Positions 28,201 to 63,371 of a DNA stretch of 64,000 nucleotides are shown here, one piece after another. A program made the position numbers and the translations under genes. The stretch is from contig NC_092671.1 of assembly GCF_964355755.1 (NCBI RefSeq), positions 10,365,001-10,429,000 on the forward strand. Direction: 5' to 3'. Position 1 is the stretch's first letter. Every line of letters begins with the position of its first letter. Below the pieces are notes generated by a model. That model worked only from the letters and a program-made list of their open reading frames with translations, searched no databases and was not told the DNA's origin. Source of the DNA: Antedon mediterranea. Taxonomy: Eukaryota; Echinodermata; Crinoidea; Comatulida; Antedonidae.

Positions 28201-28808
28201 ATAACTCTACATTTTCAGTGTTATTATTATATATTTTTTTTACTTTAAACATTTTCAAATTATGTTTTAACTACAGTTATTGCTGCATAATTCTCAATTA
28301 CTGTAAATGTATCTTTTATTCAGTAAATGTATACACAAAACAACTTTACAATAAATTCCATAACAATTGGTTCTATACAATCTTAATGCATTTATTTATT
28401 AAAGTATTATTATAAAATTGTATAATAATATTTTTTAATTGTTCAATACGGTATATTTAAGTAGGTATAAATATTAGGAATATATATTTTGTTATTTCCT
28501 ACTCTGAGTAGCTTTTTACTGTGTAGTAAAGCTGTATCTGACAATTTTTGTTTCAATTAGACCACAAATAGTAAATTTGTGAAATTTAACCACAAAAAAT
28601 ACTTCATATAATTTAGATTACTATACTATAAATTCATTGAAAAGCCAAAGTTTGTTTAGTAAAAATAATTAAATTATAATTATAATTAATACATTATGTA
28701 TTGTAATATAAAATATGAAAATGTTTACTCAGGAAGTTCGATCTTTAAAAAAAAAAAGAAGCCAATAAACAGCATTTTAACCAATTATAGTTGAAGTTGG
28801 TTTTAAAC

Positions 28809-29404
28809 ATTACAGTATTACTACAGTACTACTACAGTATTACTACAGTATTACTACAGTATTACTACAGTATATTACTACAGTATATTACTACAGTATT
28901 ACTACAGTATTACTACAGTATTACTACAGTATTACTACAGTATTACTACAGTATTACTACAGTATTACTACAGTATTACTACAGTATTACTACAGTATTA
29001 CTACAGTATTACTACAGTATTACTACAGTATTACTACAGTATTACTACAGAATTACTACAGTATTACTACAGTATTACTACAGTATTACTACAGTGTTAC
29101 TACAGTGTTACTACAGTATTACTACAGTATTACTACAGTATTACTACAGTATTATACTATTACTACAGTATTACTACAGTATTACTACAGTATTACTACA
29201 GTATTACTACAGTATTACTGCAGTATTACTACAGTATTACTACAGTATTACTACAGTATTACTACAGTATTACTACAGTATTACTACAGTATTACTACAG
29301 TATTACTACAGTATTACTACAGTATTACTACAGTATTACTACAGTATTACTACAGTATTACTACAGTATTACTACAGTATTACTACAGTATTACTACAGT
29401 ATTT
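28809..29404. repeat. 11-bp minisatellite (TATTACTACAG)n, about 54 copies
   Basis: About 595 bp of head-to-tail TATTACTACAG with a few point variants and three irregular units. Because 11 is not divisible by 3, the array reads open in several frames and gives artificial proteins with an 11-residue period (TTVLLQYYYSI). These are products of the repeat, not genes. The unit contains CTACAGTA, the same short word that is scattered singly over the window. Confidence 0.97.
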
Positions 29405-32400
29405 TAATGTTTTTATCAGTATTGTAGGCCTACAGTATCATACAGTCCAGTAGAACCCCAGAGGACACCTTAATAATGGACAATTTTCAAAATCAAAACA
29501 AGAAGAAAAACAGTTCCTATTCAAGGGACACCTCTATCAAAGGGACACATGGTTTGGTCCCATAATTTTCTTTATAATAGATTTTTTATATAAATTTGAC
29601 ATTTGACATCAATCAACTCCAATTGTTTGAAAATTTAGCTACATTTTTATATTTGTTTTATAGGCCTACACTTATTATGTCAGTAGAATATACTAAAACA
29701 TTCCTACAGTGATTATACAGTACATTACAGTGATAAATTTATAATTATATAACACTGAATATTCCCCAACTCTTAAGGTGTTTAAAACAACAGACGACAA
29801 CATAAAATTTACACAATAAATAGTAAAAATACTGTACTGTACATACAGAAAGCATCATCAGACAAATAAATTACTTTTAAACATATATCTGTTTTATATG
29901 ACCCAGAGCTCTGTGTGATTGCATGATATGTGTAAAGTTGTGTCTTGAGGCAATATGCAAGTGTTTGCATTATAATGCCTTCAAATTAGTGTAACATGGC
30001 AGTTGGAAATGAATACATAAGTTAGAATTTTGTTTAATATTGAGGTAGAAATAGAGTAGTTATAAGTCGGTATTACTGAGATAAATGGAAGATGATGAGA
30101 CAACGATACGATTGGAAATGAGATGATGTCTTGAATGTAACATATGAGATGAGCCAATAATTTTGTCTGCAAATATTTGCAACGAAATACCTTCTCCAAT
30201 AAGATACCTTGCAATCAACAATTAAAATTTGAGTGTGTGGTGATGTTTGCAAATAGTTTTAAAAACATAATTAAATTTGATTTGATTAAAAGTTTGATTT
30301 TATCACCTTTATATAGACATAAATTCGTTCATAACATAAATAACTGAGGTGTTGAATGAGTCCCTTCATACTGTAGGGGTTCTATTGTTAGTTTCAAGAT
30401 GTATTGTCCCTTGAAACACAAAAAATGAAAAAAAAAATATTCTAAATTTAAATTGGCCATATCAAAGTAATATTAAAGTTATTCACTTTAAGTCGAAAAT
30501 TCGAGTCAAAAACAACAAGTTTACGTAATTAACAGGTAAATTAATTTGATTACATTTTGTCTGGAAAATTGTCACGTGTGAAAGTAAACAAAGATGTGAA
30601 ACCATTAGTATGCATTATGCATGATGCTAATTAGGATTGTTTACAACTCGTCGCAGTTGAGAAGGTGTTTTCACTCAGATCGCAAAGAAGTTTTATAATT
30701 ATGCATACAGAGTACCCAAACAAGCACGTTGCATTATGAGATATGTTTTGATCGAAAACTTTGACTGGAAGTCAAAGTTATTTTTTGAACAAAAAAACGT
30801 CTGTATTTCGGTTAAATTATTTTTTTTTTCGACTCATTTTTGGTGAACGTTAATAACTAATGATACTTCAAAATTACATACTTTTTTTCAAAATATAAAA
30901 AAAATATTTTTTTTTAATTAGTCAAAGGGACAATACATCTTTAACTATTTAAATACAGTAGTTATTATTTTTGTATATCTGTGTATTAAGCAACCAAGAG
31001 TTAAATACGAATAATATGTTTAATCCATAGTAAGATTTGCAGTATTAGTATTATTATTATTATCATTAAAAATAAATTACAAAAGATCATTACTTCGAGA
31101 GAAAAGAATAAAACAATTCAACAACACACTTTACTAGTTAGAACAAATACTGTACTGTATGTTGTTACAACTGTATCTGTAACAATTTCAATAATGTATT
31201 AAGTACAATATACTGTGACGTACCTGCTAAAAATTCCATAATTCATTATCAGTATTAATTGGTCCGTGCCTCATTATTAATTATTTTGATAGCATTTAAT
31301 TGAAAAAGATTTACAGTGAAGCGGGAGACGCATGCAACCGCATGGAAATGAAAACAACTTAACTCATCCAGCGATGATAATATGATCAATAATTAACTTT
31401 AACATGCATTTAAACCAAGACTACACATTGTTTAATACCATGTTAATTTATATTATACATTATCACTTTTGGCAGAAGTATACAGTACAGTTACCGGTAT
31501 AGAAACACAGTACTATGTTGTTATTATACTGTAGTACATTATCTTATTTTACTTTTAAATCAAATCTGAGTTAATTATATTATTTATATTATGAATCCAA
31601 AATTTATCCTACAGTAACGATTGGTTGAAAAAGTATTTATATTAATGTATTATCTAATTCAGAATGTTTGACAACTCTATCATTTAGTTATTTGAAATGA
31701 CAAGATTTTTCAAAACTAATCAATTGAAAATAATTTCCCAACTACAAAATTTTCTCCAAAATACAATTCAATGATTGTGGTATTTATGCAAGATTACTTT
31801 AAAACATATTATGTTTAAACAAATTCAGTATCCACTCGGTACAAAGATGGCGGTCTACAGTGACTAATATGCAATTTGGTCAGTGTGAATCTGTAATTTA
31901 TAAACAATAAATATTTTGCCTAAAATTTTGAATTTCTATCTGGGATACCATTTTCCTGTCCATACAGTAGTTGTACAGTACCTCAAGTATTTGTATATTA
32001 CTGTCAATGTTCAACGTTATTTGAATAAATATTTGAATGAGAGCAGGAAGCAGTATCTGTATATTTTCTGCAAATTATACAATTTTACTTGATTGCTTGA
32101 AAACTAAGAATTTGATGCTTTCATCTATTTAAACTACAGTACTTAATTAAAGATATCTATATTATTATAGCAGACAAACTGAACTGCAGATAGTCCTTCC
32201 ATATTGGCAAATTACTGTAGCGTACATCTTCACACAGTGAAACCTACTGTACTGTGCAGATTCTAAAATAGGAAGGGGCTTGTCTTATCTTTTGCATTGT
32301 AATGCCTAGACCAGCTAAAAAGTTACTATCAGTCACTACTGTATACAAAAGGATTTTGCAACCTTATAAAGTACACTGTTTGTATATGAGCAAAAAGAAC

Positions 32401-37084: not shown

Positions 37085-37090
37085 TTTATT
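37085..37090 (-). terminator. Polyadenylation signal AATAAA
   Basis: TTTATT on the plus strand reads AATAAA on the minus strand, about 175 bp beyond the stop codon of the ankyrin-repeat gene. It is the nearest canonical signal noticed. Confidence 0.5.
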
Positions 37091-37263: not shown

Positions 37264-40200
37264 TTACAAACAAATGCAAGCAGCACTTTTGGTGACTCCT
37301 TCTTCTCCATCGACTGTAGGCCTACTTGCCTTTCTCTGCAGTGATTGGCGGCTGCCCATGTCCTCCATGGAAACGTCTTCTATAGGGCTATCATTCACTT
37401 TTATGGTGTTTCCTGACATTCTACTGTCTGGTCGAAACTGCAATGATAATAAAATAAATGATAAGCATAAAATTGGTATTGAAAAAAAACATGTTTAGCA
37501 TTCGTTTGTTATTTAAATCACACAGTTGGCCTACAGTTTCTATTAATAAATAGATGTAAATTTATGTAGTAAATTGATGTAAGGAGGCATAATTATATAT
37601 TATAATCTAATTTCATATTACATAGGTAAACATTTTTTCAATTGCTTATGAAGAGAATATGTACTGCAAAAACGAAAAAAAAAATGTGTTGTTTGGACTG
37701 ATGTATCATTAGCATAAAAAACTTCACGAATACGGTACAGATGACGTCACTAGTACGTGACCTCAATAAAAGTGATGACGTAAATAGCTGAAAATACACC
37801 GTTAATGATCAGACATTTCCAACGAAATCGAATCTTACGATGTAATTGCTCCTTTAATGGCTTATGGTGAGCTAATTTTAGCATCAGACACTTAATAAGA
37901 CAGAAGAAAATAGAAGTAAACGTCATCAATCAATTTAGCATAGTTCTGATAGTGAATGTATCTTTAACTATTCTATTAAAATAAAGTTGTCTACGCCAGT
38001 TACGTATTTCATCTTTGATGACGTCAAACAAAGCTATTGTTTTGAACGATTTTGATTATATTGTTGGCAAAACTCTAATTTTACTATTTCTACTTATGTT
38101 TTTTTATATATATAATTTAGCATTACACAAAATATTTGTGAACAATTCTGTCAGGATTTTCATTACATTTCGGTAGCAATTAATACTCGTTATAATAGAA
38201 CATAGTACATCTTTCAAGACGAGTAGGGGGTTACCCCGGTGTATTAGTTCATCACAGCCACTGATCACAAACTGGGCCCTCTGGGAGACCAGTCTTTGAC
38301 TGAAGAGGTCGCCCAGTATAAAAACAAACAAACAAACAATACACTTAACAAACTTGTTTTTTCAACCTACCGTGGCTCTACTAGATGGTTCCACAATACG
38401 CGGTTGTTTGCCCTGAAAAAAAAAACACCACATAATTAAGTTAGGCCTATTGTATTAATTTAACATCAACAATTGTTTTTTTTTTTTTGTATAATTACTG
38501 AAATTTCGCTTATGGACGGTTGAGGAAATAAAATAAGGTAATATCACAAAATAATATTATTCTGCGCATTCGTATACGATATACACCATTCCGTCTGTTA
38601 TTGACGTCACGAAACGAACGCTTGAAATACGATGTAACCGTCATCGTTGTTTGCACTCGGTAAACGTCGTAGTTACTTGTCGTTTCTGTCATTTTTTTTT
38701 TCACATCCGTTGATAAACAAATCTTACCATTCTTTTCATCAATTCATTACTAATGAGTTCCACTAATTGTTCTATTGTTTGTGTTTGTTCTCTGGCCATA
38801 CATTCCCGGGCAGTCTGTAACGCAGTTATTTCGTAAATTTGATTGTTAGAGTCACAGTTCTGTTAAGAAATAATATACAAAAATTAATAACGTAATATAA
38901 CATTAGTAAATGCAAGGAAGAGTCAATCCACATTATCATGATATAAAAACGGTTGTTTGATTTTAGTTGTTATCAACAAGATGCAGACTTTATGATGGTA
39001 ATATTATTTTATTCCACATGGGTTAACCACATCTCGATGGCTCAAATCCAAACAGAGATTTAAGAGGATATATTTATTTATATTTGTTTTTGTTCTGTGT
39101 TTTATTAGTTTTCTATGTGTTTTATGACAATACTGTAAGGTACGGTAAGAGTCAATAAACTAAACTATATAAGCGACGATCTAAACCTAATATGACAATA
39201 CTGTAACGTACGGTAAGAGTCAATAAACTAAACTATATAAGCGACGATCTAAACCTAATATCCGCAATTGAAACTTTTCTCACAAGATCGTTAGCTTATT
39301 ATGGAATGAAAACTACTACAGTAAATATAAAAATCACGCGAATTATTGAAGGGGAATATAACACATTCACTTTATAAATTAATCAAAATAATTTATATTG
39401 GGAGGGCATGACATATAGGCCCTACGCCATACAATTCTGTATGAATTTACCTATGAGCCAGGTGATTGTAGACAAGTGATTAAAAATATTTAATTAAAGC
39501 TGAGATTACCCTGATATATAGTGTTTTTTTTATTTAGGGAACCTCACCCATCATTAGCTCTGCCCATTACGACAATATAAAAAATACTAAAAGTTATTAC
39601 TTGAAATATTGTATCTAGCTCTGCCCCTTTTTCGATTAACATTCTAGCTGTTTCAAGTTGATTTACAAATATAGCAAATATTAACACCGATTGCTGTTTG
39701 TTTGTGTTATCCTGCAAAGAAATGAAGAAATTAAAAAATATATATAATATAATATTCTATCTGAATTAAAACCAAGTAAAAAATTAAAACCAATTAAAAC
39801 TAAAGATGTTAAAGTGCCTAAGTGATAGTAACATTCTTTTAATTGTAACATTTTGAATTTCATAGCACGATATTCTTCCATTGTCAATCTGATCAAATTG
39901 ATCCCCGATCCTTCAAACATGTTTGGTTAATCGGCCAAGCCGATGCCGAGTCGTTTTTGATCGGCATGCCGAGTAGTTCCCGATCGGTATGCCGAATTTA
40001 TCAGATCAGAAGTAGGAATGCAATTGATATGTAAATTTACTCTACATACACATACATACGATATGTTTGGGACACTCTATGCAGTTAGAACTCGCTCATC
40101 ATGGAAAGAAATTTTCAGACAACGGGTAACATTCTTTATTTATCTAAAATGTGAACGTTTTATTAAATAACGCCGACTAACCTTATATACGATATTGATA

Positions 40201-43200
40201 TCCATCCCATAATTCAACAGTAAGTTTATACATTCTGCGTCTCCTTCACTTACTGCATCAATTAAAACCTAAAAGTTTATAAAAAAAATCTTTATTATAC
40301 ACATATCTTAACCGACAAATATGCAAGGTATTGAAATAATATGTATATTTGGCATTCATCAAATTGTTTTGCTTTGGTATTAATACAGTATCATTATTTT
40401 GAATTCCACAACTTTAAAATTGGATAGGACGCCCTCTCTATCGTCACACAAATATGTTCGTATAATTTCTATATAAATACTGTATAATACAGCAGTAGTA
40501 ACTTCTCCATCAATATAAAATACAATAATTGATTTTTTTTTATAATAAAGGTAATTGAATCATTAACTGTTTTAATTTCCGACAATTCCACACGCAGAAA
40601 GTAGACCATAACTAAATTATTATTGACTTAGATTCGTAAATGATATACTATTGAATTGTAGTTATTATTTCATGTTCTTACAATCAAATGCACTGTAGAA
40701 AATAAGTATACAATAATTGATATAAGACTCAGATTTACCACAACTCGGGTTTGACCCTAGGAAAAATAGGTACGTGACGTGCGCCCTCTTTATCGTCACA
40801 CATTTTAGGTTCCATCGAAATATAACATTTCCGCAATGTTGTAATGGTGAGAAGAATCGCAGTTCAAGCCACAGACGGAATAGTAAAATATATATATTGG
40901 TAAAGAGTCTTCGATCGTATGTTTAACAATATTATATAGGCAAATAAACTTACCTGCGCCGGAAGTAGATTAGCTGCTGGCAAGTTAGCGGGCATAATTC
41001 GTTTTTCTTTTCCCTATGAAATTGAAATTCCAAAAAAATAGATTTATAATGACAACAGTGATTGAATTAGAAATCTGCAGTACTTATATGGGTCTATATT
41101 CGAATAATAAGTAGCACATCCGATTCTTGGTATTGTATCTCCACATATAGCATTATAATGTTTCAGTATCATAGGCAAATTCCACGATACAGTGTCACAT
41201 GTATCTAATGTGGCTAATGTGTCATGTCACGCCATCTCGCTCAACCAATTGCATTTAATGCTACTTCCTAATGCTTCTTGTACAATATAAAATAGCATTT
41301 CAATGAATCCATGTTAATTGAGCTAATTGTCCATACCTTTGTTTTGATAAGCTCATCTTCAATAAGTTTCAGTATTTCTCCTACCGTTGAATCTAAGCTT
41401 TTATCATAAATAATTGTGGCAGCTTTGTGCGCCGATATTCGATAAATACACGCATGCATAGCATCATAATTCTGAATAAATGAAAAAAATACATACATAT
41501 GTGTGTATTATTAATAACCAAAACTTATGTGAATACTGTTTTGATGTATTTTATTGTAAACAAAATGGAGTGAAGAATATATAGTACTCTAGTAGCTAGA
41601 TCAACTTTCGTATGCACTTTGAGGTCCAGAGAATTTGACTTCAGAAATTGGTTTAGGGTGGTCAAACAATCATATTTGGCTTGGTTACACATTTTGAAAA
41701 TGTGGCGAAAGGTCGAAAGGTCAAGGTGAAAGGTCATAAGACCAAACATAAATATGTCCTTAAATCTCAACAACCATTGGTCACAACGAGGTAATTTTGG
41801 TCTTAAATTAATCAGAAGGTATACATTTATATTCAGTCTAATGGGACATTTTAGTAAAAAATGACCGGAAATGCCATTTATGACCTTTGACCCACAACCC
41901 AGGGCATGTATGTATCTCCGTCACTACTGGTCGTAGACACTTGAATTTGGTTTTAAATTGTTCGAAATATATGTTTTGTTATTTGTTACACATTTTTAAA
42001 AATGTTACAAAAGGTCAAAGGATCAAGGTCAAGGGTTATTTGAACAAATAAAAAAAGGTACTTTTATCTCGGCAACCACTGGTCGCAGCAAGTCAATTTT
42101 GGTCTCAAAATGTTCAGAAGGCATGCATTTATATTCCATCTAATGGGGCATTTTAGTAAAAAATGATAAGAAATGCCATTTCTGACCTTTGACCCACATA
42201 CCAGGGCATCTTCATATCTCTGTAAGTGCAGGTCGTAGAAACTTAAATTTGGTATCAAATTGTTCGAAATATACATATTTACATTCATTGTAATAGAAAA
42301 TGTGGTTAAAAGATGAACAGAAACACTCTTAATAATGTTTCAAACAAAAAACTTATCTACACAACTTATCCTTAGACAGTAATGTTATGCAATAACTGAT
42401 ACTTTAAATTGTTTTAATTTCAAGTACTAGTTATTGCTGTCCCCGAGGACATTTTGATAATTTTAATTTTAATTTAATTTTGGATTTATATAGCGCTTTT
42501 CCAAGTGACCAAAGCGCTGTACAATAGAAAATAGATAGAAACGTTAAGCTCAACAGTTCTTTTCAGAATGCTAGAAGTAACTTGCCATATGTATCCGATT
42601 AAACGCCCCAGGAATTTATTGTTCAAAATGGTTTTTAGGGGTAAAGGAGACAACTTTATTTGGGGTATAATATGGTAACATGTATAATCAAATAAATACC
42701 ACCTAGATGTAAACAAATACTGCACAATTAATATCAAAAAGTGATAAAATTATGTCAAAATGCTTGGTAAATTGTAGATTATGGTAGTTAATGAAATGTG
42801 TTGACGTGATACAATTATTGTGTAAATGCATGTGGCGGGGCGTTTATTCCACATGGTGTTCTATTTGAGAGAATGGTGGCGTTTATTTGAAGGAATACTC
42901 TAATTTTAATAATTGTATTTTCTTTCTCAACTGATAAAAGGTATTTACATGATTCGTTTTCCTCTTTATGCTTTTTAACGAAATGTTTCTGTCTTTTAAG
43001 ATAAAAGTGATAGATTCCATTAAATGGATCTTCCCCTCCATGTGCCAGTATAATGATATAAAACAATGACACATCATTATCCTGACACGATTGCACTCAT
43101 AATGGATCTTCATTCTATCATCTATTTGTTTGTAACTACAATTTGACAACAATCTTTTGCATAGTTTTAAATGCCAATACATAGTTTCATTACTATTGTA

Positions 43201-46200
43201 CAATATGTCCAGCTTTCCTGAAAACACCCTTGTGTACTGTAGTACAGTGTTGTAGTATGATTTTATCATGATAAACTTCTGATGGTTTTATTGTCAATGC
43301 TTTCAGTACCTAAAACATGTCAAAGTTTCTAGTGGTATTGATAATAAATCTCCAGAAATATATATTGTTTTATTATCTACACTGGGAACAGACGTGTATA
43401 TGTATAAGTTTTGTCGTTGACATTCAAAACTATTATGCAACAGTGTTACGTAATAATATATTATTGTGGTCTCCGATACCTTTTATTACATGATTGTACT
43501 TCCTCCAGGATAGAATGAGGTTTAATCCCGTTATTATATATATATATTTTTTATATATATATATCTGGGGTGTATTTAGTTGATTATACATGTTACCATT
43601 ATTACACCCAACAAAATAAACGCCTTCCCTGAATAAATAAATGCCCGAGGCTTTTATTCGGGTAACTACAGTAAATTACTTCTAGCATTCTCAAAATGTT
43701 TGAACGTTCGGGGGTCAACAATAATTTCTAGCATTATTATAAGCAAAAGTACAATTATTACAAACAGTAAAGGATTTGTTTTAATTCCTACATTATAAGG
43801 AAATCATTAAGCATCAATTATTGCATAACATTACTGTCTAATGATAAGTTGGGTAGATATGTTTTTCATTTAAAAGATTAGTAATTAATAGTATTTATGA
43901 TCATCTTTTATCCAAATTTTCTGTTAGAATGAATGTAAATATGTGTATTTCTAACAATTTGATACTAAATTTAAGTTTCTACGACCTGTACTTACAGAGA
44001 TAAGAAGATGCCCTGGTATGTATGTCAAAGGTCAGAAATGTCATTTCCGGTCATTTTTTACAAAATTTTTCATTAGACTGAATATGAATGTATACCTTCT
44101 GAACATTTTGAGACCAAAATTTACTCGCTGTGACCAGTGGTTGCCGAGATACAAATACCTATTTGTGTTTATTCATATAACCCCTGGCCTTGACCTTTTG
44201 TAACATTGTTCAAAATGTGTAACAAATAACTAAATGTATATTTCGAACAATTTGAGCCCAAATTCAAGTCTCTACGGCCAATAGTTACGGAGATACAGAC
44301 ATGCCCTGGTTTATGGGTCAAAGGTCAGAAATGGCATTTCCGGTCATTTTCGACTAAAATGTTTCATTAGACTGAATATGAATGTATACCTTCTGATCAA
44401 TTTGAGACCAAAATTACCTCGCTGTGACCAGTGGTTGTCGAGATTTAAGGACATAATGGTGTTTGATCTTATAACCTTTGACCCTGACCTTTTGACCTTT
44501 CGCCACATTTTCAAAATGTGTAACCAAGCCAAAAATGATTGTTTGACCACCCTAAACCAATTTCTGAAGTCAAATTCTCTGGACCTCAAAGTGCATACGA
44601 AAGTTGATCTAGCTACTAGAGTATAGGGCCTACGTAAGTGAGGGTTGTTGAATATTTTTAAATCATAGTAACATTAAAAGAGCGTCATAGCGGTAAGAAA
44701 TCATGTTCGCATGCCGCCAGTGACACCATTGAGTTACTTTAGAAACTAATTACTCTATTACAACACCATCAGAGATGCAACGGTTACGTGCGTGTACAAA
44801 AAAAGTTTCAACTGTCAGAGTTTGAATGCGCGCGTAAAAATGTTTCGTGTTTCTGACGATGACTATACCTTATTTGGTCATAAATATTTACCATATATAC
44901 AGTAGATACGTCAGCACCTCTTTCGATTAACTGTTTTGCAACTTCAAACTGATGTTGACAAATTGCAAGTATCAGTAATGAGTGTTGACTTCCATCTGCA
45001 TCATCCTTTGATATAAAATAAAAAAATACATTTTAAAACTTTTGTTATCCGTCGATTGTGTATTTCTCACAATAGCCTTACAAGGGTCGTCATCTTAATC
45101 ATAAATTACATCATTATCCTATCTCAGAACACTACCAGTCTCTTAAATAGAGGTATCCTCTGATTAGGTGTTGCCTGTAGTGTTAAAACATACTGCTCCT
45201 CATACGTTTCATATAGGAAAGTGTCTTATATGGGTGTCCCTGAATTGGAGCATGGAACCATAGGTCCATGATTGGAGTGTCTCAATGGATGGGTTCAATC
45301 TTCATCGTCATCGTATTAATCATTATCAACTATATTTTGTCATTGGCATCATGATTTCGATGAATAAATATCTTTTTTAATGAAAAGCAATTAAATTAGA
45401 CCGTAATTTCTAAGCAGACAAGACAGGAAATAAGGCGCCTTGGTTTTCACATTACCTCTGTATCATCGTTTTAATGGTTATGTTATGTATCATAGTTTAC
45501 ATAATAGAGAACAATGTCAAGTATTGTGTCCTCAAATATATTACTATCTGCTAGAGAAACATCTTTTTAAATGTTAAGATTATTCTTGTTGTTAAGGTAA
45601 TAAACAGCCATAGTGATGCCGTTTGTATTGATTGGCCCTATACATCATATCCTACGTCAACTGCAGGGTTCATCAAACTGCTTAATAGGCCTGACTGAAC
45701 GTTTCTATTGCTCTATGCTCTAGTCTGGGTATAAACTGTAATAAACTGTTCATGTAATTTTCGCGCAATACGCTAGGACCAGTTAAACAAAATAATTTCA
45801 CTCGAAAGTACACCGTTGTTCAATAATAAAAGATGTTTTGACACATGATATACATATAATATTAATAGTCTATCGATATTCTAAATTCACATTTTCGTTT
45901 ATTAAATCTTACATAAGCTATACATTAAAGCATGTATTGTATTAATTGCATTGTGATACATATAAATTACAGGTCTATGATCTAGGCCAGGCAAATTACC
46001 TTATCGGTAGCGTTCACGTCACCACCGTTGTCAAGGTGCTTGCACACTGCTCTTGTATCTCCGATCTCAATTGCATCTATTAAGGCCTAGAATAGGACAA
46101 AAACAATCAATTTATTGAACATCTATAAAGATAATGAATGCAAGAGAGATAGATAAGTAAATGCTATGGTTCAACGGAATAAAATAAGGAAAACGACGGA

Positions 46201-49011
46201 AATAATGAATATATAATTTTAAAACAATATTAATCGGAAATCGGATTTGATAGTGTAGACAGAGCTTTAGTAATGATATCAGTGACACTTCTTCTGAATG
46301 AGTGATATTTGTTTCAAATTCGTATCTATGGGTTCAAAATTTATAGTGTGGGTATTCCAACCACTTCTATTTCATTACTTTCTCAACTACCAATTATTTC
46401 TCTAATTACAATATTACAAACAAATTAACATTCATATTAAGAATGTGTTATATTGCACCTAGGCTAATTTTGAATTTTGAGTCATGACTAAACGTCTGTT
46501 AAGCTCTGTCAACACTATCAAAATAGTTTGACAAAAAAGTGTGATGTGCCCAAATATGGTAGTGATATACCCAAATGTGGTAGTGATATGACATCGTCAT
46601 GTTTAAATATGGGCACCTCAAATTTTAGTTGTCAAATAAAGTTTGATAGTGTAGACAAGGCTTTAGTTAGTGTGAGAAATAGATTATAGTCATTCAATTT
46701 TAAAAGTAGGTCTGTGTGAATAATCTAGGTCTACAGTTTTTTCAACAGAGTTAAACTGTGTTATGTTATTGATCAACAGTACTTATAGTGCACTCAACTT
46801 AATAAAATATATATAAATATTAATTATATAGTTATTGCTGGAGCGGTGTACTTTAATGTTTAAGTAATGGTGTGATTGGCATTTGTTAGCTCTTTGCATA
46901 TAAACTAGCAGAAGAAAAGAAGAATTGAAAGGGGTAAAATGTGCGCGCATTAATTTTCAATATTATAGATTTATTATTATTCTATAAATCATTTGATTAT
47001 ATCGATTCCTGTATTAATAAATTCATCATTTAGTCATATAAAAATGGAAAGAGTTAATAGTTTAGTTAATAGTTCAGTCTCAGACTGAAGTTTTAGTTAA
47101 CAAAAAGTTTAAATATTTCTTACAAATATTTGAATTTCTGTTCTACTGTGTTTTAGTAGCCAGTATACCAGTGCAGCCAAATGATTGATGCTGCGTAATT
47201 GTCTCTGCAATGTGTTAATCAGTTTTAGTATAACATTTTCGTTATTTCGTTATTTCGTTGAATTGTGTATCATATCATCATCATTGTTTTTCAACCGTTG
47301 ATCAGTCTACCTTTCAATCATCTATAACCAAACAGGGTAATTGAATTTACTTTATTCCATTCAGTTTACTGTAAGATCAGGGAAGAGTGACATTTTGATA
47401 TGATTATTTGAATTTCACTCTTTCCTGAAGATTGAGTTGACAATTGTTTCGACTTGACGAAACAACCAATTTTGCCTAAATTGCTCTGACTATCTGGTGA
47501 ATAATCAGTCTTTATCTTTTTAGTCTAACCAAACGATTGATGTCAGGTCCTATTGTTAGTACTTTACTATTTTATCAGTCGATGTTAGTGTAAACCAAAC
47601 GATTGATACTATATCCCATTTAATTGACGGTTAACCAGTCTACCATTTTAGTCTAACCAAACCATGTCAATCCTGTGTTAATCAGTCTAACTTTTTACTG
47701 TCTAACTAAACTATTGATATGGTCAAATTGCACTGGAAATCCCGTGTTAATCAGTCTACGATTTTAGTCTAACCAAACCATGTCAATCCTGTGTTAATCA
47801 GTCTAACTTTTTACAGTCTAACTGAACGATTGATATGGTCAAATTGCACTGGAAATCCCATGTTAATCAGTCTACCATTTTAGTCTAATTAAGCAATGTC
47901 AGTCCCGTGTTAATCAGTCTAACTATTTATAGTGTAACTGAACGATTGATATGGTCAAATTGCACTGTTAATCAGTCTACGATTTTAGTCTAACCAAGCC
48001 ATGTCAATCCTGTGTCAATCAGTCTAACTTTTTACTGTCTAACCAAACTATTGATATGGTCAAATTGCACTGGAAATCCCGTGTTAATCAGTCTACCATT
48101 TTAGTCTAACCAAACCATGTCAATCCTGTGTTAATCAGTCTAACTTTTTACAGTCTAACTGAACGATTGATATGGTCAAATTGCACTGGAAATCCCGTGT
48201 TAATCAGTCTACCATTTTAGTCTAACCAAACCATGTCAATCCTGTGTTAATCAGTCTAACTTTTTACAGTCTAACTGAACGATTGATATGGTCAAATTGC
48301 ACTGGAAATCCCGTGTTAATCAGCCTACCATTTTAGTCTAATCAAACAATGTCAGTCCCGTGTTAATCAGTCTAACTATTTATAGTGTAACTGAATGATT
48401 GATATGGTCAAATTGCACTGTTAATCAGTCTACGATTTTAGTCTAACCAAGCCATGTCAATCCTGTGTCAATCAGTCTAACTTTTTACAGTCTAACTGAA
48501 CTATTGATATGGTCAAATTGCACTGAAAATCCCTGTTAATCAGTCTACCATTTTAGTCTAACCATGTCAATCCTGTGTTAATCAGTCTAACTTTTTACAG
48601 TCTAACTGAACGATTGATATGGTCAAATTGCACTTGAAATCCGGTGTTAATCAGTCTACCATTTTCGTCTAACCAACCCATGTCAATCCTGTGTTAATCT
48701 GACTTTTTATAGTGTAACTTAACGATGGATATGTCATATTTCACTGGAAATCCCGTGTTAATCAGTCTACTATTTTAGTCTAACCAAGCCATTTCAATCC
48801 TGTCTAACTTTTTTTATAGTCTAACTGAACGATTGATATGGTCAAATTACACTGGATATCCCGTGTAATTTAGTCTACCTTACTTTAACCGAAATATTGC
48901 GACCCTAATTGCTGTTAATCAGTCTCCATTTTAGTTTAATCGAACGATTAATACGGCCCTAATTGTTTTCACTTACCCTTTTGGCTGCAATTTCCTTTCG
49001 AGTAACTACCA
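37264..49011 (-). CDS. Ankyrin-repeat protein with duplicated four-exon block and CaaX-like C-terminus (325 aa, 10 exons)
   Basis: Minus-strand coding exons: 49011-48976, 46086-46000, 45005-44892, 41471-41337, 41013-40954, 40268-40182, 39711-39601, 38859-38728, 38412-38371, 37437-37264 (TAA at 37266-37264). All junctions are GT-AG and phase 0. The start is MVVTRKEIAAKR; an in-frame TGA lies two codons upstream. Exons 2-3 and 6-7 encode ankyrin-type helices (ALIDAIEIGD, LIERGADV; VLIDAVSEGD, LIEKGAEL). Exons 4 and 8 encode Glu/Lys-rich helices (EILKLIEDELIK; QLVELISNELMK), and exons 5 and 9 are short linkers starting GK. Exons 2-5 and 6-9 are paralogous blocks, roughly 40 percent identical in the ankyrin parts. 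The last exon is acidic then basic and ends AACICL, a CaaX-like box. Ankyrin repeats usually bind proteins; the partner is unknown. I do not recognise a named orthologue. Confidence 0.85.
38199..38338 (+). mobile_element. Truncated SINE relative of the 12.7-kb copy
   Basis: GAACATAGTACATCTTTC and GAGTAGGGGGTTACCCCGGTGT match the body of the SINE at 12.69-13.04 kb (GAACCTAGTAAATCTTTC; GAGTAGGGGCCGTTACCCC). The tRNA head is missing and the tail is (AAAC)n. It lies in the last intron of the ankyrin gene, antisense to it. Confidence 0.7.
39124..39260. repeat. 68-bp tandem duplication
   Basis: Two adjacent copies with period 68 start ATGACAATACTGTAAGGTAC and ATGACAATACTGTAACGTAC. They are almost identical and lie in intron 7 of the ankyrin gene. 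Confidence 0.9.
42475..42530 (+). repeat. Dispersed TATAGCGCTTTTCC...CCAAAGCGCT motif
   Basis: This short segment reads TTTATATAGCGCTTTTCC, then CCAAAGCGCTGTACA, with AGCGCTTT and AAAGCGCT forming a stem. From memory, similar sequences are widespread in marine animal genomes as part of short repetitive elements. It sits in the loop of the foldback element. Confidence 0.5.
43533..43566. repeat. AT microsatellite
   Basis: An (AT)n run interrupted by a T tract, in the loop of the foldback element in intron 3 of the ankyrin gene. Confidence 0.8.
46246..46270. mobile_element. Solo end of the GTCTACACTATCAAAC MITE family
   Basis: TTTGATAGTGTAGACAGAGC alone matches one end of the family. No opposite end is adjacent, so it is a remnant in intron 1 of the ankyrin gene. 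Confidence 0.6.
46499..46666. mobile_element. MITE, same family (copy C)
   Basis: It starts TTAAGCTCTGTCAACACTAT and ends GTTTGATAGTGTAGACAAGG, with interior AAATATGGTAGTGATAT motifs. It lies in intron 1 of the ankyrin gene, about 230 bp from the solo end. Confidence 0.85.
47500..48940. repeat. 116-bp composite tandem repeat in ankyrin intron 1
   Basis: The array is built of a 47-bp and a 69-bp half, both beginning GTTAATCAGTCTA. The 69-bp half carries GAACGATTGATATGGTCAAA and CACTGGAAATCCC. The period measured between copies at 48,081 and 48,197 is 116 bp. About ten higher-order units are visible, some missing a half. Copies degenerate towards both ends, and related words continue back to about 47,280. 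Confidence 0.9.
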
Positions 49012-49166
49012 TATTTCATCCTATGACGATTGAGCCATTTCAAGCCATGTGCATATTGACTTCATTTCAGAATAAATTACACTAAGTTCTACTAACCGTC
49101 TCAATAAACACATTGAAACGTACAATGATAAAACAAATAAAACACACGGTATAGACGTGATATTCC

Positions 49167-57104: not shown

Positions 57105-58016
57105 TCATCTCGAGCGTATACTACATAACCATTTCATCCGATTTCTTGTAGCTTCTCTAAACTCACAGATCCTCCATCCATACACAATAGGGTTGATCAT
57201 AGAGTATGCTACTGCCAAGTCAAAAAAGGTGGCGTACACTATATCCAAATGATTGTTTTCCATGCATCCCAAATCTTCAAACACGATTTCCAAAATGCGA
57301 AAAATATCAATCGGCAGCCAACATAAAGTACTAGATCCAACAGTAATAGCGAATGTGCGGAGCAGCCTCTTTGATATTTGTAAATCTTGCGATCTAGACG
57401 GGCCTATTTTCTTTTCATGTTTTAAAACAGTTTTATATATCATAATGTAAACCACATTAACCTGAACAAGAAGCGCAAAATTAATCAATGCTAATGCATT
57501 GTGCAGTTCAATCTGTAGTTCAGAGTAGATTAAAGAAATTGCGATTGTAAATGACAATATCCACGTAAAAAATACACCTACAAATAGCCTGTAAGGTGAA
57601 TTAATATCTTTATTAAAAGGATACAACACTACAAGAAGTCTTTCGATGGATATGGCTAACAATGACTGTAACGAAGCGATTACAAATGCTGTGGAAAGGG
57701 CTGTCATAGCTACCGCAGTATCTTGGTCAAAACCATCTCCAACAATAACAGTAATAAGAATTGTTAAAGCAAATAACCCGTCTGCCAGAGCTAAAGAAGA
57801 TGTGAAAATGTATTGACGCTTTCGTAGAGGTTTTTCAAAAATTATTGGCAAAAATACATTGACATTAAACAGTAGTGATAATGAGCACAGTATGTACAAT
57901 ATTGTTACGTTAATACTATCTGTTGAGAGTTGATGGAAAAATATCTCAATTAGATTGAAGTCGCAATAAACTGTCGACGTCTCTGTTAAATTGCTATCGG
58001 TGCTGTTGTTGTCCAT
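57105..58016 (-). CDS. Rhodopsin-class GPCR, intronless, orphan (303 aa)
   Basis: One uninterrupted frame gives a complete seven-helix receptor. The N-terminus has sequons (NNST, NLT, NVT). TM1 is about 36-60; TM2 about 69-93 with LALADG (D79); TM3 about 100-124 followed by ERL (125-127) in place of DRY. TM4 is about 142-163 and TM5 about 172-194. TM6 has CWLP (232-235), and TM7 has NPIVY (275-279) then GW and a basic tail. The usual Cys at the top of TM3 and its ECL2 partner are both absent, as in lipid, cannabinoid and melanocortin receptors, but the ligand is unknown. The start MDNNST fits a typical short N-terminus. It is related to, but clearly diverged from, the two receptors further right on the same strand. 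Confidence 0.9.
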   Translation of the reverse strand: MDNNSTDSNLTETSTVYCDFNLIEIFFHQLSTDSINVTILYILCSLSLLFNVNVFLPIIFEKPLRKRQYIFTSSLALADGLFALTILITVIVGDGFDQDTAVAMTALSTAFVIASLQSLLAISIERLLVVLYPFNKDINSPYRLFVGVFFTWILSFTIAISLIYSELQIELHNALALINFALLVQVNVVYIMIYKTVLKHEKKIGPSRSQDLQISKRLLRTFAITVGSSTLCWLPIDIFRILEIVFEDLGCMENNHLDIVYATFFDLAVAYSMINPIVYGWRICEFREATRNRMKWLCSIRSR

Positions 58017-60062
58017 TTTTTATACCGTATTCTTCAGAACATACAATTCAAATACAGTAAAGCAGGTTTATCTCCATTTTGTTAAGCGTTACTTCGGACT
58101 GTATTCAACAAGGACACCACTTGTCCAAATTGTATTCCTTGCGTAATAATCCAATTTGTCATCTACTGTATAGTCCGTAGTTATTACATCATAATCGACA
58201 TATTTTGTTGTATGTATGTTGTATGAACTTCTCCGTGATAATTACAAAAGGTAGACTGGAAATCAGGTTTCGAGTATGCGCAGTAAACAGATGATCTTCA
58301 AATCATGTTATGCAATGTTTGTAGACCTATGGGCCGCCGCCGGGCTTCGAAAATGCAAGTGAATCTTCAGTTTGGCAATTGGGACAAGGTTAGTATTATT
58401 ACTGCGCATGAATCGTCGTATATAGAACGTTATTAAATTCTTAAATTCAATAGCTACAAGCATGACTAGTCATTTGTTTGGTTGAAGATTTAAAATTTAA
58501 TTCTAGTTGACAATAAGTGTAGTGTATACTCAACGTTGCAATTGTTGGTTGGCCATGAAACTGTTTACAGTGCTTTCCGGTCGAAGTTACCGAGTCTCCA
58601 ATAGACAGTTATCAATTCCATAGATTGATCAAAATATAATTAAAACGTACAAAACCTGTATTACCTATAATAGTTAAAGAACCACGTTTGATATCAAATT
58701 TTGATAAACCTTCAATGTATTAAATGTATTCAATACAGGGATATAGGGAAATTGAATAAGTAACTCGGGGATTTGCCTGATCATCAAAGCTGGAGAGACT
58801 GTCATAAGCATAGCAAGAACGATATAATTAACTAAGATGATATAATTGACTATGGCTGGAATACGCAACCAGTCATTGTTACCAGCCAGTTAATTTAATA
58901 GGCCTACTTGGAAAATGTCACTAATACTGTATACATACAATTAACGATTGTCGTTTAGTTGAAGTACCAATTGTAAATTTAAAAACAAATTTATAAACGC
59001 TGTTGCCTTAGATGTAAATTTTATTTTAAAAATATGTGTACGTGTGACATCACTTCTAACCCAGGATTAAATGAATACCACAGAAAGATTATCTGCGTCA
59101 GTTAAAGAACCACGTTTGGATTAGATTAACAATTGTCGTTTATTTTAAGTAGCAATTGTAAATTTGAAAACAAATTTATAAACGTTGTGTGTACGTGTGA
59201 CATCACTTCTAATCCAGGATTAAAGGAATACCACAGAAAGATTATCTGCGTCACTAAACTGTATTATATATAACAATGTGGAGAGTATTCTATGTTCGTT
59301 TTATGTTGTGTTATTGACAAAATCGAATAAAAAAAATTTCTGAAACATACTACGCTTAATAAAATATTAATAACTGATATAATATCAACAATACATATTT
59401 GACATGCCTTGTTCAGTGTTCCGACGTTATGGTGTTTCATTCCGACCTACCGTCCCTGTAGTAAACTATACTATTTACCAGTATAAGATAAGATTACTTT
59501 ATTTCATCCACAAAACAAGTATAATATTTAAAGTAAGATCTACAAACATTAATTATTATTTTATATTTTACGCCTATGCTTTACGAGAAGAACAGTATAA
59601 TAATATATCTTATATTTTAATTGTAAAACCAAATATAATCAATCAGCTTTAATTTGTGTATTTTCTTACACATTGAAACTTATGCACTACAATACAGATA
59701 CCAGTATAATTGCAAATGAAAATCGAAAAATTGCTAAAACAGTCAAGGATTTTATATAGTAGAAGTATATCCTTTTCTTTAGAGTGTTTATGTTTCTGAT
59801 CAATAGCAATATTTTCTTTCTATTCCTGCTAACTGTAGACCATTTTTTGCCCCATTAGCAACATTTCCTCTCTGTTTCTGCCCAGTAGTAATCTTTATTT
59901 ACACTGCTTTCTGGCCAACATCAACATTTCCTTCTATTCCTATTCAGTAAATAACCTATTTTGATTTAGGCATAGGCCTATACACAGCATGATTTTCTTT
60001 ATATTCCTGGCCAGTAATAACCGTATTTCTAAACTGTCGCAAACATTGTTTTCTGTTCCCAC
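58017..60062. other. Intergenic stretch with duplicated segments
   Basis: No gene is supported. It includes the tandem segment duplication at 58,941-59,253 and the degenerate minisatellite beginning near 59,810. The 64-codon minus-strand frame at 58,674-58,868 is hydrophobic but lacks GPCR motifs. The 82-codon plus-strand frame at 59,404-59,652 has no features. Confidence 0.45.
58941..59253. repeat. Diverged tandem segment duplication
   Basis: The segment 58,941 to about 59,097 recurs at 59,126-59,253, sharing GATTGTCGTTTA/AATTGTCGTTTA, GTGTACGTGTGACATCACTT and CCACAGAAAGATTATCTGCG. The second copy lacks about 30 bp in the middle. A linked word, GTTAAAGAACCACGTTTG, also occurs near 58,672 and 59,101, so the event may be compound. 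Confidence 0.85.
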
Positions 60063-60150
60063 CTACTTGGTAATAACCTTTAGGCCTACTGTTGCCGTTT
60101 TCTGAGCAGTATTTTTTCTTTTCTGTACCTGCCCATTAGTAACCTTTTCT
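59810..60150. repeat. Degenerate minisatellite overlapping the 3-prime end of a GPCR gene
   Basis: About six diverged copies resemble TTTTCTGTTCCTGCCCAGTAGTAACC at spacings of roughly 50-65 bp (near 59,816, 59,865, 59,925, 59,993, 60,044 and 60,107). The last copies lie inside the coding sequence of the receptor ending at 60,063. Confidence 0.65.
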
Positions 60151-61064
60151 TTAGACGGATTCTGTTTGTCGCAAATAAATAACCGTTTCTTTACGCTTTT
60201 TCTAATATCTTTATTTCTCCATCCGTATACTAATGGGTTAATCACGGCATATAATGCTGCGAAGTTAAAAGCAATAGCGTAAACGTCAATATAGATTTCT
60301 GACGTGCAACTAATGTTAAGAAATATGTCTAAAAGTGTAGTTACGTTTATTGGCAACCAACATAGTGCGTATGACGATATGATTATTGAAAATGTTTTTA
60401 GAAGTTTCCGAGTTGTACTGACATTTGTATTTGATTGCAGGGATCCTCTGAATCTATGCGCCTCCATTTTCTTATCTTGTTTAGCAACATATCTATATAT
60501 CATAAAGTAGATGGAATGAAGAATGTGAATCAGACAGATTTTGAATATAGTTAGGAAAGTCTCCATTTCATATAAGTGTCCAAATGCAAACAATAAACCA
60601 ATGAATATAAACGAAAATAACCATATTAATGCTAAAATAAAAAATATTTTTCGAGCAGAATTCACATTTGGATTAAATGGAAACAAAACGATAACCAAGA
60701 GTCTTTCAACTGCTATAGCTAGCAATGTGAACAGGGACACAAGCGAAGCTGATATTCCAACAGTTGCAACTATTATACTGGATGTAGTTGAAGCGTTTTT
60801 AATTTTAACTGAAATGAGGAAGAAAACAGCAAACAGTCCATCTGAGAGTGCCAAAGAACAAGTAAATATATGACTTCGCTTACGTAGTTCCTTTTCAACA
60901 ATAAACTGTAGAATCACAAACACATTTAATAATACTGCGATAACACAAGTTATTTGAAACAGAACTTTGTTAACGTGGTATTCATCTGCTCCTAATATTT
61001 GGTAGTATATTCCTGATAAAGAATAATTGCACAAAAACGATCCTGTTTCGTTACTTTCCATCAT
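60063..61064 (-). CDS. Rhodopsin-class GPCR, intronless, orphan (about 333 aa; frame open to 61,139)
   Basis: The start is placed at MMESNETG (61,064) because the neighbouring paralogue begins METNET; the frame is open 25 codons further, to an ATG at 61,139. Numbering from 61,139, the hallmarks are LALSDG in TM2 (D100), ERL after TM3 (145-147), CWLP in TM6 (260-263) and NPLVY in TM7 (301-305), then GW. Sequons NET and NYS lie in the N-terminus. As in the receptor at 57-58 kb, the TM3 Cys is missing. The tail after TM7 is about 50 residues, Lys/Thr/Gln-rich, and is encoded by minisatellite-like DNA. Loop 3 and TM5-TM7 are nearly identical to the paralogue at 62.5-63.3 kb. Ligand and coupling are unknown. 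Confidence 0.9.
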   Translation of the reverse strand: MMESNETGSFLCNYSLSGIYYQILGADEYHVNKVLFQITCVIAVLLNVFVILQFIVEKELRKRSHIFTCSLALSDGLFAVFFLISVKIKNASTTSSIIVATVGISASLVSLFTLLAIAVERLLVIVLFPFNPNVNSARKIFFILALIWLFSFIFIGLLFAFGHLYEMETFLTIFKICLIHILHSIYFMIYRYVAKQDKKMEAHRFRGSLQSNTNVSTTRKLLKTFSIIISSYALCWLPINVTTLLDIFLNISCTSEIYIDVYAIAFNFAALYAVINPLVYGWRNKDIRKSVKKRLFICDKQNPSKEKVTNGQVQKRKNTAQKTATVGLKVITK

Positions 61065-61139
61065 GTCACTGAGACTGCCTTTCGTATGAGCTTTGATGTA
61101 CTGAATTTTAAAACGTCTAAACGTATTGTTGACGATCAT

Positions 61140-62461
61140 GGGCGAAATTATTTCCTATATTCTCATGGTCAAACCAATTATTACTGGTATTAATAAACGA
61201 GTATCTGTTATAGTAAATCTATAGCAGATATCATAATCTATTTCATGAACACATTCATATCAATTTTCTAATTTTCTTTAATCAATAATAATCAGAGATA
61301 TACATAAAGGAGTTGAGCCAACAAATAAATGAAAAGGAAAAAAAACCTGATAAACCGTGTTCGCACAAAGAAGGCTGACTAATCATGAAAGAACAACTTG
61401 AAACATCTTAATTACAGTCCAATCTAATACTAAAAGCTGTAATGCGTAGCTTAGTTACAAATCATTTATATTTGATTACTTTTTGTAATGCTTTAACGGA
61501 TTGCAGATCATAACGACATACGAGAGTGGGATAAAACATCAGAGAAACAGCGTCAAATTGATAAAAATAAAAAATGTCCAATGTGCTTTAAAAGTAGATT
61601 TAGGTCCTAGTACATAATGCTACACAAGTTCGATTTCGTTTCCCAAATATCAACGCTTTGAAGGACCTGCATTTAAAAACACTTATTCAAACAAACAAAA
61701 AAACTGTGTCAACTTTGAACAAAATGTCTATTGTTTTCAAATAATATAAACATTTATTAATGATTGATGGTATATAATACAATACAACCTTGTGATTTTC
61801 CAAAACTACTGCATATAATACATAATAAAGCATAATATATCGGAGAAGGTAGATTAGTTAGATGCTGCTCCCAAAAGTCGCAGGTATTTGTTCTTGAATA
61901 TCGTTAATATAATATTTACAAAAAGACTATGGATTACATTTTCTTTAATTGGGCTTATTGGAATCTTCGAACTATCTTTTTTTATGACAGTTTTTCATAT
62001 TTAATACTGTATATACACAGCTGGTATTCGATATGTGTTATTTATTTTGTTTTTTCTAATTGTTGGTTTAGGCCTATGTAAATAAAATAATATACTCAAT
62101 AAATCAAATTTATTTTGATCACTATTTTAAATTACATTTAGATGATAATTTCATTTTACCTGCTATGCTATTTGTGTATACAGGTAGTATATATAAAACT
62201 TAAATAATTACAATTGCTGCCAATGCTTTGACGAAACTGAAAATTGTTGTTGTAAAAAACGGTTTTCTGCATAAGAACCGTTTCTAATCGAATTCATTTT
62301 GTTTTTTCTATATATATGATTGTAATCGTTCTTTAAATTGTATTATGAAATTACTTTGACTGATTTAGTTTTTGCCGTACAGTAAAATGACAACAATAAC
62401 AATTTTATTGGACTGTTTCTGTTGTTTTCTGACAAATGGAAGTAGTACCGCGGGTAACCGT
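61140..62461. other. Intergenic stretch between GPCR paralogues
   Basis: AT-rich and without coding regions. It presumably contains the promoter of the receptor to its left and the 3-prime UTR of the receptor to its right. No extended similarity to the matching region beyond 63.4 kb was noticed. Confidence 0.4.
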
Positions 62462-63371
62462 TTATTTAGAATCTTTCAGTTTCTTGCACAAAAGCAACCG
62501 TTTCTTTGCACATTTTCTAATATCTGTATTTCTCCATCCGTATACTAATGGGTTAATGACGGCATATAGTGCTGTGAAGTTAAATGCAATAGCGTAAACG
62601 TCAAGATAAATTTTTGTCGTGCAACTAAATTTAAACAATATGTCCAAAAGTGTAGTTACGTTTATTGGCAACCAACATAGTGCGTATGACGATATGATTA
62701 TTGAAAATGTTTTTAGAAGTTTCCGAGTTGTACTGAAATTTGTATTTGATTGGGATCCTCTGAATCTATGCGCCTCCATTTTCTTATCTTGTTTAGCAAC
62801 ATATCTATATATCATAAAGTAGATGGAATGAAGAATGTGAATCAGACAGATTTTGAATATAACGAAAACAATTTTCAATATATATAACTGTTCAAATGCA
62901 AACAATAATCTAGCGAATGAAAACGAAAATAACCATGTAACTGCTGAAGTAGCAAATAGTCTTCGAGCAGAGTTCACATTTGGATTAAATGGAAACAAAA
63001 CGATAACCACGAGTCTTTCAACTGCTATAGCTAACAGTGTGAGAAGAGATACAAGCGAAGCTGATATTCCAATAGAGGAAATTATTAATATGGATGTAGT
63101 CGAAACGTTTTTAACAGTAACTGAAATAAAAAAGAAAACAGCAAACAGTCCATCTGAGAGTGCCAAAGAACAAGTAAATATATGACTTCGCTTACGTAGT
63201 TCCTTTTCAACAATAAACTGTAGAATCATAAACACATTTAATAATACTGCAATGACACAAGTTATTTGAAACAGAACTTTGTTTGTTAACCTGGTATTCA
63301 TCTGTTCCTATAACGTAGAAGTGTATTTCAAATATTGAATAATTACAAAAAAACGTTTCGTTAGTTTCCAT
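62462..63371 (-). pseudogene. GPCR paralogue with 4-bp frameshifting duplication near the N-terminus (279-aa frame from 63,301)
   Basis: This is a tandem duplicate of the receptor at 60-61 kb. The ancestral start is METNETFF at 63,371. After DEYQVNK the paralogue reads GTTAACAAAGTTC, but this copy has GTTAACAAACAAAGTTC (63,275-63,290). The 4-bp duplication throws the upstream frame out. An ATG just before it, in another frame (63,301), reads MNTRLTNKVLF into the intact seven-helix region, with ERL (95-97), CWLP (209-212), NPLVY (250-254) and a short tail KKLKDSK. The gene could be newly dead, or expressed from the inner ATG without the glycosylated N-terminus. All seven helices remain open, so inactivation, if real, is recent. 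Confidence 0.75.

Follow-up and report, generated by a model that had tools for sequence, protein, structure and literature searches.

Several repeats duplicated at once, with exon patterns that match between the copies, are a common published route to longer repeat proteins, and the same work leaves it open for such cases whether exon shuffling or another form of tandem duplication was responsible (PMC1553488). Nebulin carries blocks of four exons and seven domains, in which a multi-exon block and its exon pattern recur within one gene (PMC1553488). The combination of an ankyrin domain with a C-terminal CAAX-like motif has in turn been described for a bacterial effector, the AnkB protein of certain Legionella strains (PMC7542358).

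Here we describe a gene of the crinoid Antedon mediterranea that may combine such features on a small scale, located in a 64,000-nucleotide stretch of contig NC_092671.1 (the window, to which all positions refer). As in proteins of the Pfam families Ank_2 (PF12796) and Ank (PF00023), two clear repeats are found in each of two blocks, but here the loop after repeat 1 is longer, a third element appears degenerate, and the whole module is doubled with a linker. Compared with the nebulin blocks (PMC1553488), there are only two copies, and they have diverged to 37% identity. Unlike the AnkB of those Legionella strains (PMC7542358), this is an animal gene, the Pfam matches to its blocks and tail include no F-box, its prenylation is putative, and no homology to AnkB is claimed.

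A predicted ten-exon gene on the minus strand

The gene model was predicted from the sequence and runs on the minus strand from 49012 to 37264, with ten exons and 325 codons. All nine introns have GT-AG borders and all nine are phase 0, since no codon is split between exons, and the ten joined exons form one open frame of 325 residues. GC content is 39% in the coding exons versus 32% across the locus, and 50, 36 and 33% at the first, second and third codon positions of the model. The best explanation is an intact, single gene predicted to encode a 325-residue protein, and presumably expressed. An AATAAA at 37085..37090 (minus strand), approximately 170 bases past the stop codon, is a candidate polyadenylation signal.

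The least certain exon is the first (48977..49012, minus strand; 12 codons, MVVTRKEIAAKR), which carries the proposed start codon and is put forward on its donor score and open frame. An in-frame TGA lies two codons 5' of this start. Between 46087 and 64000 we found nine phase-0 ATG-to-donor candidates, and among the eight that were compared (the other being shorter than 8 codons) exon 1 had the top donor score, 6.6. The remaining exons follow on the same strand. Block 1 comprises exon 2 (46000..46086, 29 residues) and exon 3 (44892..45005, 38 residues), which hold its first and second ankyrin repeats, exon 4 (41337..41471, 45 residues), which holds a third element that may be a degenerate capping repeat or some other helical element, and exon 5 (40954..41013, 20 residues), a linker beginning GKEKRI. 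Block 2 repeats this layout in exon 6 (40182..40268, 29 residues) and exon 7 (39601..39711, 37 residues), exon 8 (38728..38859, 44 residues) with its own third element, and exon 9 (38371..38412, 14 residues), whose linker begins GKQPRI. Exon 10 (37264..37437, 57 residues and stop) encodes the tail and was assigned from the sequence and the model. An earlier note on this DNA had given the lengths, order and phases of exons 2 to 9, and these were rebuilt in full, with outer limits of exactly 38371-46086; the 325-residue protein it named is reached with exons 1 (12 codons) and 10 (57 codons), which lie outside that span.

The introns and surroundings of the gene hold several repeats of their own. 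A foldback-type element roughly 3 kb long lies in intron 3 (41585-44623). The outer 434 bases of its inverted arms are 92% complementary, its interior carries repeats close to 300 bases in length, and it has TA at each end; all 40 of the arm matches scored in the genome (from 1386 candidates, the window copy included) were full or near-full length at 97-100%. A tandem array of a 116-base unit (approximately 11 copies, 86% matches) fills 47630-48879 of intron 1, and intron 7 has a 68-base tandem pair (39123-39258) that is 99% identical, a recent small duplication. Farther off, a long simple-sequence array at 28781-29450 encodes repeated YYYSITTVLLQ-like peptides in all three plus frames, and three single-frame rhodopsin-type receptor reading frames stand on the minus strand at 57108-58019, 60066-61154 and 62465-63307 (Pfam 7tm_1, E 6.1e-27, 3.6e-25 and 7.3e-24), apparently tandem paralogues.

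Duplication of the four-exon block

Block 1 (exons 2-5, 132 residues) and block 2 (exons 6-9, 124 residues) align end to end with 44 of 119 residues identical (37%) and a score of 77 bits. Identities are spread over all four exon pairs, at 11/29 aligned columns for exons 2 and 6, 16/38 for exons 3 and 7, 13/45 for exons 4 and 8, and 5/20 for exons 5 and 9, with global pair scores of 47, 81, 45 and 21, respectively; no shuffle out of 2000 reached the score of any of the first three pairs, and 15 reached that of the last. The similarity of the blocks exceeds chance. In the matrix of four exons against four every row and every column peaks on the diagonal, the top off-diagonal score being 38 (exon 3 with exon 6). 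Each of the residue matches pointed out earlier (ALIDAIEIGD with VLIDAVSEGD, LIERGADV with LIEKGAEL, EDELIK with SNELMK, and GKEKRI with GKQPRI) is present in the block alignment. A tandem exon-block duplication is identified by similarity in the same order, with exon borders and phases that agree, and such similarity is found here, so that the in-frame duplication of four exons first proposed in the earlier note is well supported by the block alignment, the exon matrix and the phases.

Exons of separate origin might also look alike simply because ankyrin repeats resemble one another. Exon 6 is in fact similar to exon 3 (38) and exon 7 (36) as well as to its partner, which may be the general ankyrin level, and with single exons, ankyrin sequences elsewhere in the genome come close in score. 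However, the expected partner is always the best in the matrix, even for the non-consensus third element and the linker, and lengths agree to within one residue in three of the four pairs. An independent origin of the exons is highly improbable, and we reject it because of the matrix diagonal.

When the 354 Mb genome was searched at E 10 with block 1, and with block 2 plus the tail, each query gave seven matches from eight candidates scored. Block 1 recovered its own four exons; next came exon 7 (20.4 bits, E 0.117), ahead of two other places at 18.5 and 18.3 bits. Block 2 plus tail recovered exons 10, 8, 7 and 6, with exon 3 (19.9 bits, E 0.113) next and two further places at 17.8 and 13.8 bits. 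The cross matches between exons 7 and 3 are weak and slightly ahead of other places (E about 0.5), and genome-wide those between exons 2 and 6, 4 and 8, and 5 and 9 were absent at E 10 among the matches listed. The blocks are thus each other's nearest kin among the candidates scored, by a small margin at the exon level. No close or dispersed paralogue was seen elsewhere in the genome among the candidates scored (11, 8 and 8), and no second copy of exon 10 among the genome matches listed; matches to Ank_2 itself are common in this genome (at least 150 scored, of 828 candidates). Within the window, a two-block profile run against reading frames of at least 15 residues returned the eight exons and nothing more above the inclusion threshold; the profile was built from these same eight exons, and the result therefore shows only that no third copy is detected in the window. 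Two peptide patterns matched 123 stretches in prokaryote genome contigs, and none was confirmed as a relative.

A blastn comparison of the two genomic blocks in direct orientation gave six pieces. The longest, 62 bases at 69% (E 0.099), falls within exons 3 and 7, the remaining five measure 13-21 bases, and the intron DNA of block 1 shows no clear similarity to that of block 2. The duplication is old because the introns lack such similarity, and a recent event is ruled out by the same comparison, whose longest shared piece is exonic. Block 1 has internal introns of 994, 3420 and 323 bases, and those of block 2 measure 470, 741 and 315 bases; the 3420-base intron is the one that carries the foldback-type element. 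The second block would stem from an old in-frame duplication of exons 2-5, for which recombination within the introns is the route we infer. A literature search joining ankyrin repeat, intron phase and symmetrical exons found no paper.

The same present protein would also be predicted if two neighbouring single-module genes, themselves tandem copies, had been joined, the first of them losing its final exon and the second its initial one, in which case the event would be a gene duplication followed by fusion. Each block does have a complete layout of module plus linker, exon 5 exceeds exon 9 by 6 residues, which might mark the join, and apparent tandem gene copies exist nearby in the three receptor frames within 57108-63307. 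Yet the intron between exons 5 and 6 holds no clear remnant of exon 1 or exon 10, each search giving one chance-level piece (E 3.0 over 10 residues and E 2.1 over 4 residues, respectively), of a kind that an old remnant could also give, and no single-block relative occurs elsewhere in the genome among the candidates scored. We regard such a fusion as unlikely and favor duplication within one gene, an old internal event of the ordinary kind.

Ankyrin repeats and the third element

The product is an ankyrin repeat protein with two clear repeats per block. Pfam Ank_2 matches the joined blocks at 3.4e-15 (56.8 bits) and each block alone at 28.1 and 36.3 bits, all above the curated cut-off of 27.3. 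The architecture, which had at first not been recognised, is a doubled short ankyrin module because Ank_2 passes that cut-off in both blocks. At a threshold of E 0.001, the whole protein matches 59 distinct sequences among solved structures, mainly designed ankyrin proteins together with natural ones such as Kidins220; in most of these rows no single stretch passes the threshold alone, and the whole-sequence score sums several repeats. In 55 of the 59 the best stretch covers repeats 1 and 2 of a single block, and in the other 4 it spans both blocks; exons 2, 3, 6 and 7 therefore each correspond to about one repeat, and as read from the sequence the introns appear to fall near the loop tips of these repeats. 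Relative to the matched chains, the loop that joins repeat 1 to repeat 2 has about 5 extra residues in block 1 and about 4 in block 2.

An ankyrin model made within the same genome, for which seven long reading frames supplied 65 repeat hits, was applied to single exons, some with few flanking residues and exons 4 and 8 each flanked. Exons 3, 6 and 7 scored 15.5, 19.4 and 22.0 bits, with none of 500 shuffles as good in any case, and exon 2 scored 4.4 bits (3/500). The block alignment, Pfam and the gene model support all four of these exons, and this in-genome ankyrin model also supports exons 3, 6 and 7; the two linkers are placed by the block alignment.

Exons 4 and 8 scored near background, at 1.3 bits (15/500 shuffles) and -1.2 bits (33/500). 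A profile-profile comparison pointed the same way: against 58 three-repeat stretches from seven ankyrin reading frames of the genome (a loose source alignment of 238 columns), all three local hhalign alignments ended after repeat 2, at block residues 60-65. Global profile alignments of the blocks are forced and were excluded from the evidence. Exon 8 is described by the block alignment, the in-genome model and these profile alignments. Such scores and endpoints make it fair to describe the third element, as the earlier note did, as something other than a standard ankyrin repeat, and could mean that it is a separate helical element, the module then being an ankyrin pair plus helix plus linker as that note proposed. 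This is a point about fold and is compatible with the block duplication. Against it, the Ank_2 match covers residues 2-90 of block 1 and so reaches into exon 4, and in 7 of the 59 solved-structure rows the best stretch runs to protein residue 89, the tenth of exon 4; the site directly after repeat 2 and the exon 8 motif TALQTA (counterpart SAHKAA in exon 4) would likewise suit a capping repeat whose loop is longer. The capping reading is not supported by hydrophobic moments: in exons 4 and 8 the supposed helices do not exceed shuffled sequences in amphipathicity (the value is reached by 235 to 1122 of 2000), and their mean helix propensity is slightly higher than that of the whole protein (1.08-1.16 versus 1.05). 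For these two exons the support for an ankyrin label is weak and mixed. Judged by its position and TALxxA-like motif, the element would seem to be a degenerate capping repeat whose loop is longer, and we view the separate helical element as the less probable choice, though one to be taken seriously.

The C-terminal tail and a possible two-headed adaptor

The exon 10 tail has no Pfam match at E 0.01, and includes a QRKAS sequence that we take to resemble a PKA site. The protein ends in KSAACICL, followed by the stop codon. The last four residues (codons at 37267..37278, minus strand), on which the earlier note was silent, form a possible CAAX prenylation box, in that Cys is four residues from the C-terminus and X is Leu; a CAAX box calls for aliphatic residues at both a1 and a2, and here a1 is Ile and a2 is Cys, the latter not aliphatic and so a departure from the simple form of the motif. 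We treat CICL as a lead only and do not class the protein as a CAAX protein. A terminal Leu in CAAX favors geranylgeranylation. A literature search for CICL with CaaX found no paper.

Taken together, each copy of the module would consist of two clear repeats, a third element most likely capping the stack, and a short GK..RI linker. The 325-residue protein is most likely an adaptor, whose two short ankyrin stacks would bind a pair of partners or a pair of sites on a single partner, and CICL, if prenylated, may hold this adaptor on membranes. Our best reading is therefore of a two-headed (bivalent) ankyrin adaptor, perhaps lipid-anchored and tethered to membranes, and we consider the block duplication and this two-module reading, as a pair, to be the best explanation of the locus and a probable one. 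A bolder version, in which the gene belongs to a lineage-specific family of lipid-anchored adaptors with two self-capped ankyrin modules and non-ankyrin helical caps, spread as a four-exon cassette and bridging two partners at the membrane, strikes us as quite doubtful.

The gene is a clean and compact example of a repeat protein doubling in one step, which is possible because all of its introns share one phase. If the capping element and the motif at the C-terminus are borne out, the protein would represent a natural ankyrin scaffold that is small and two-headed; if not, it would be an ordinary member of its kind.
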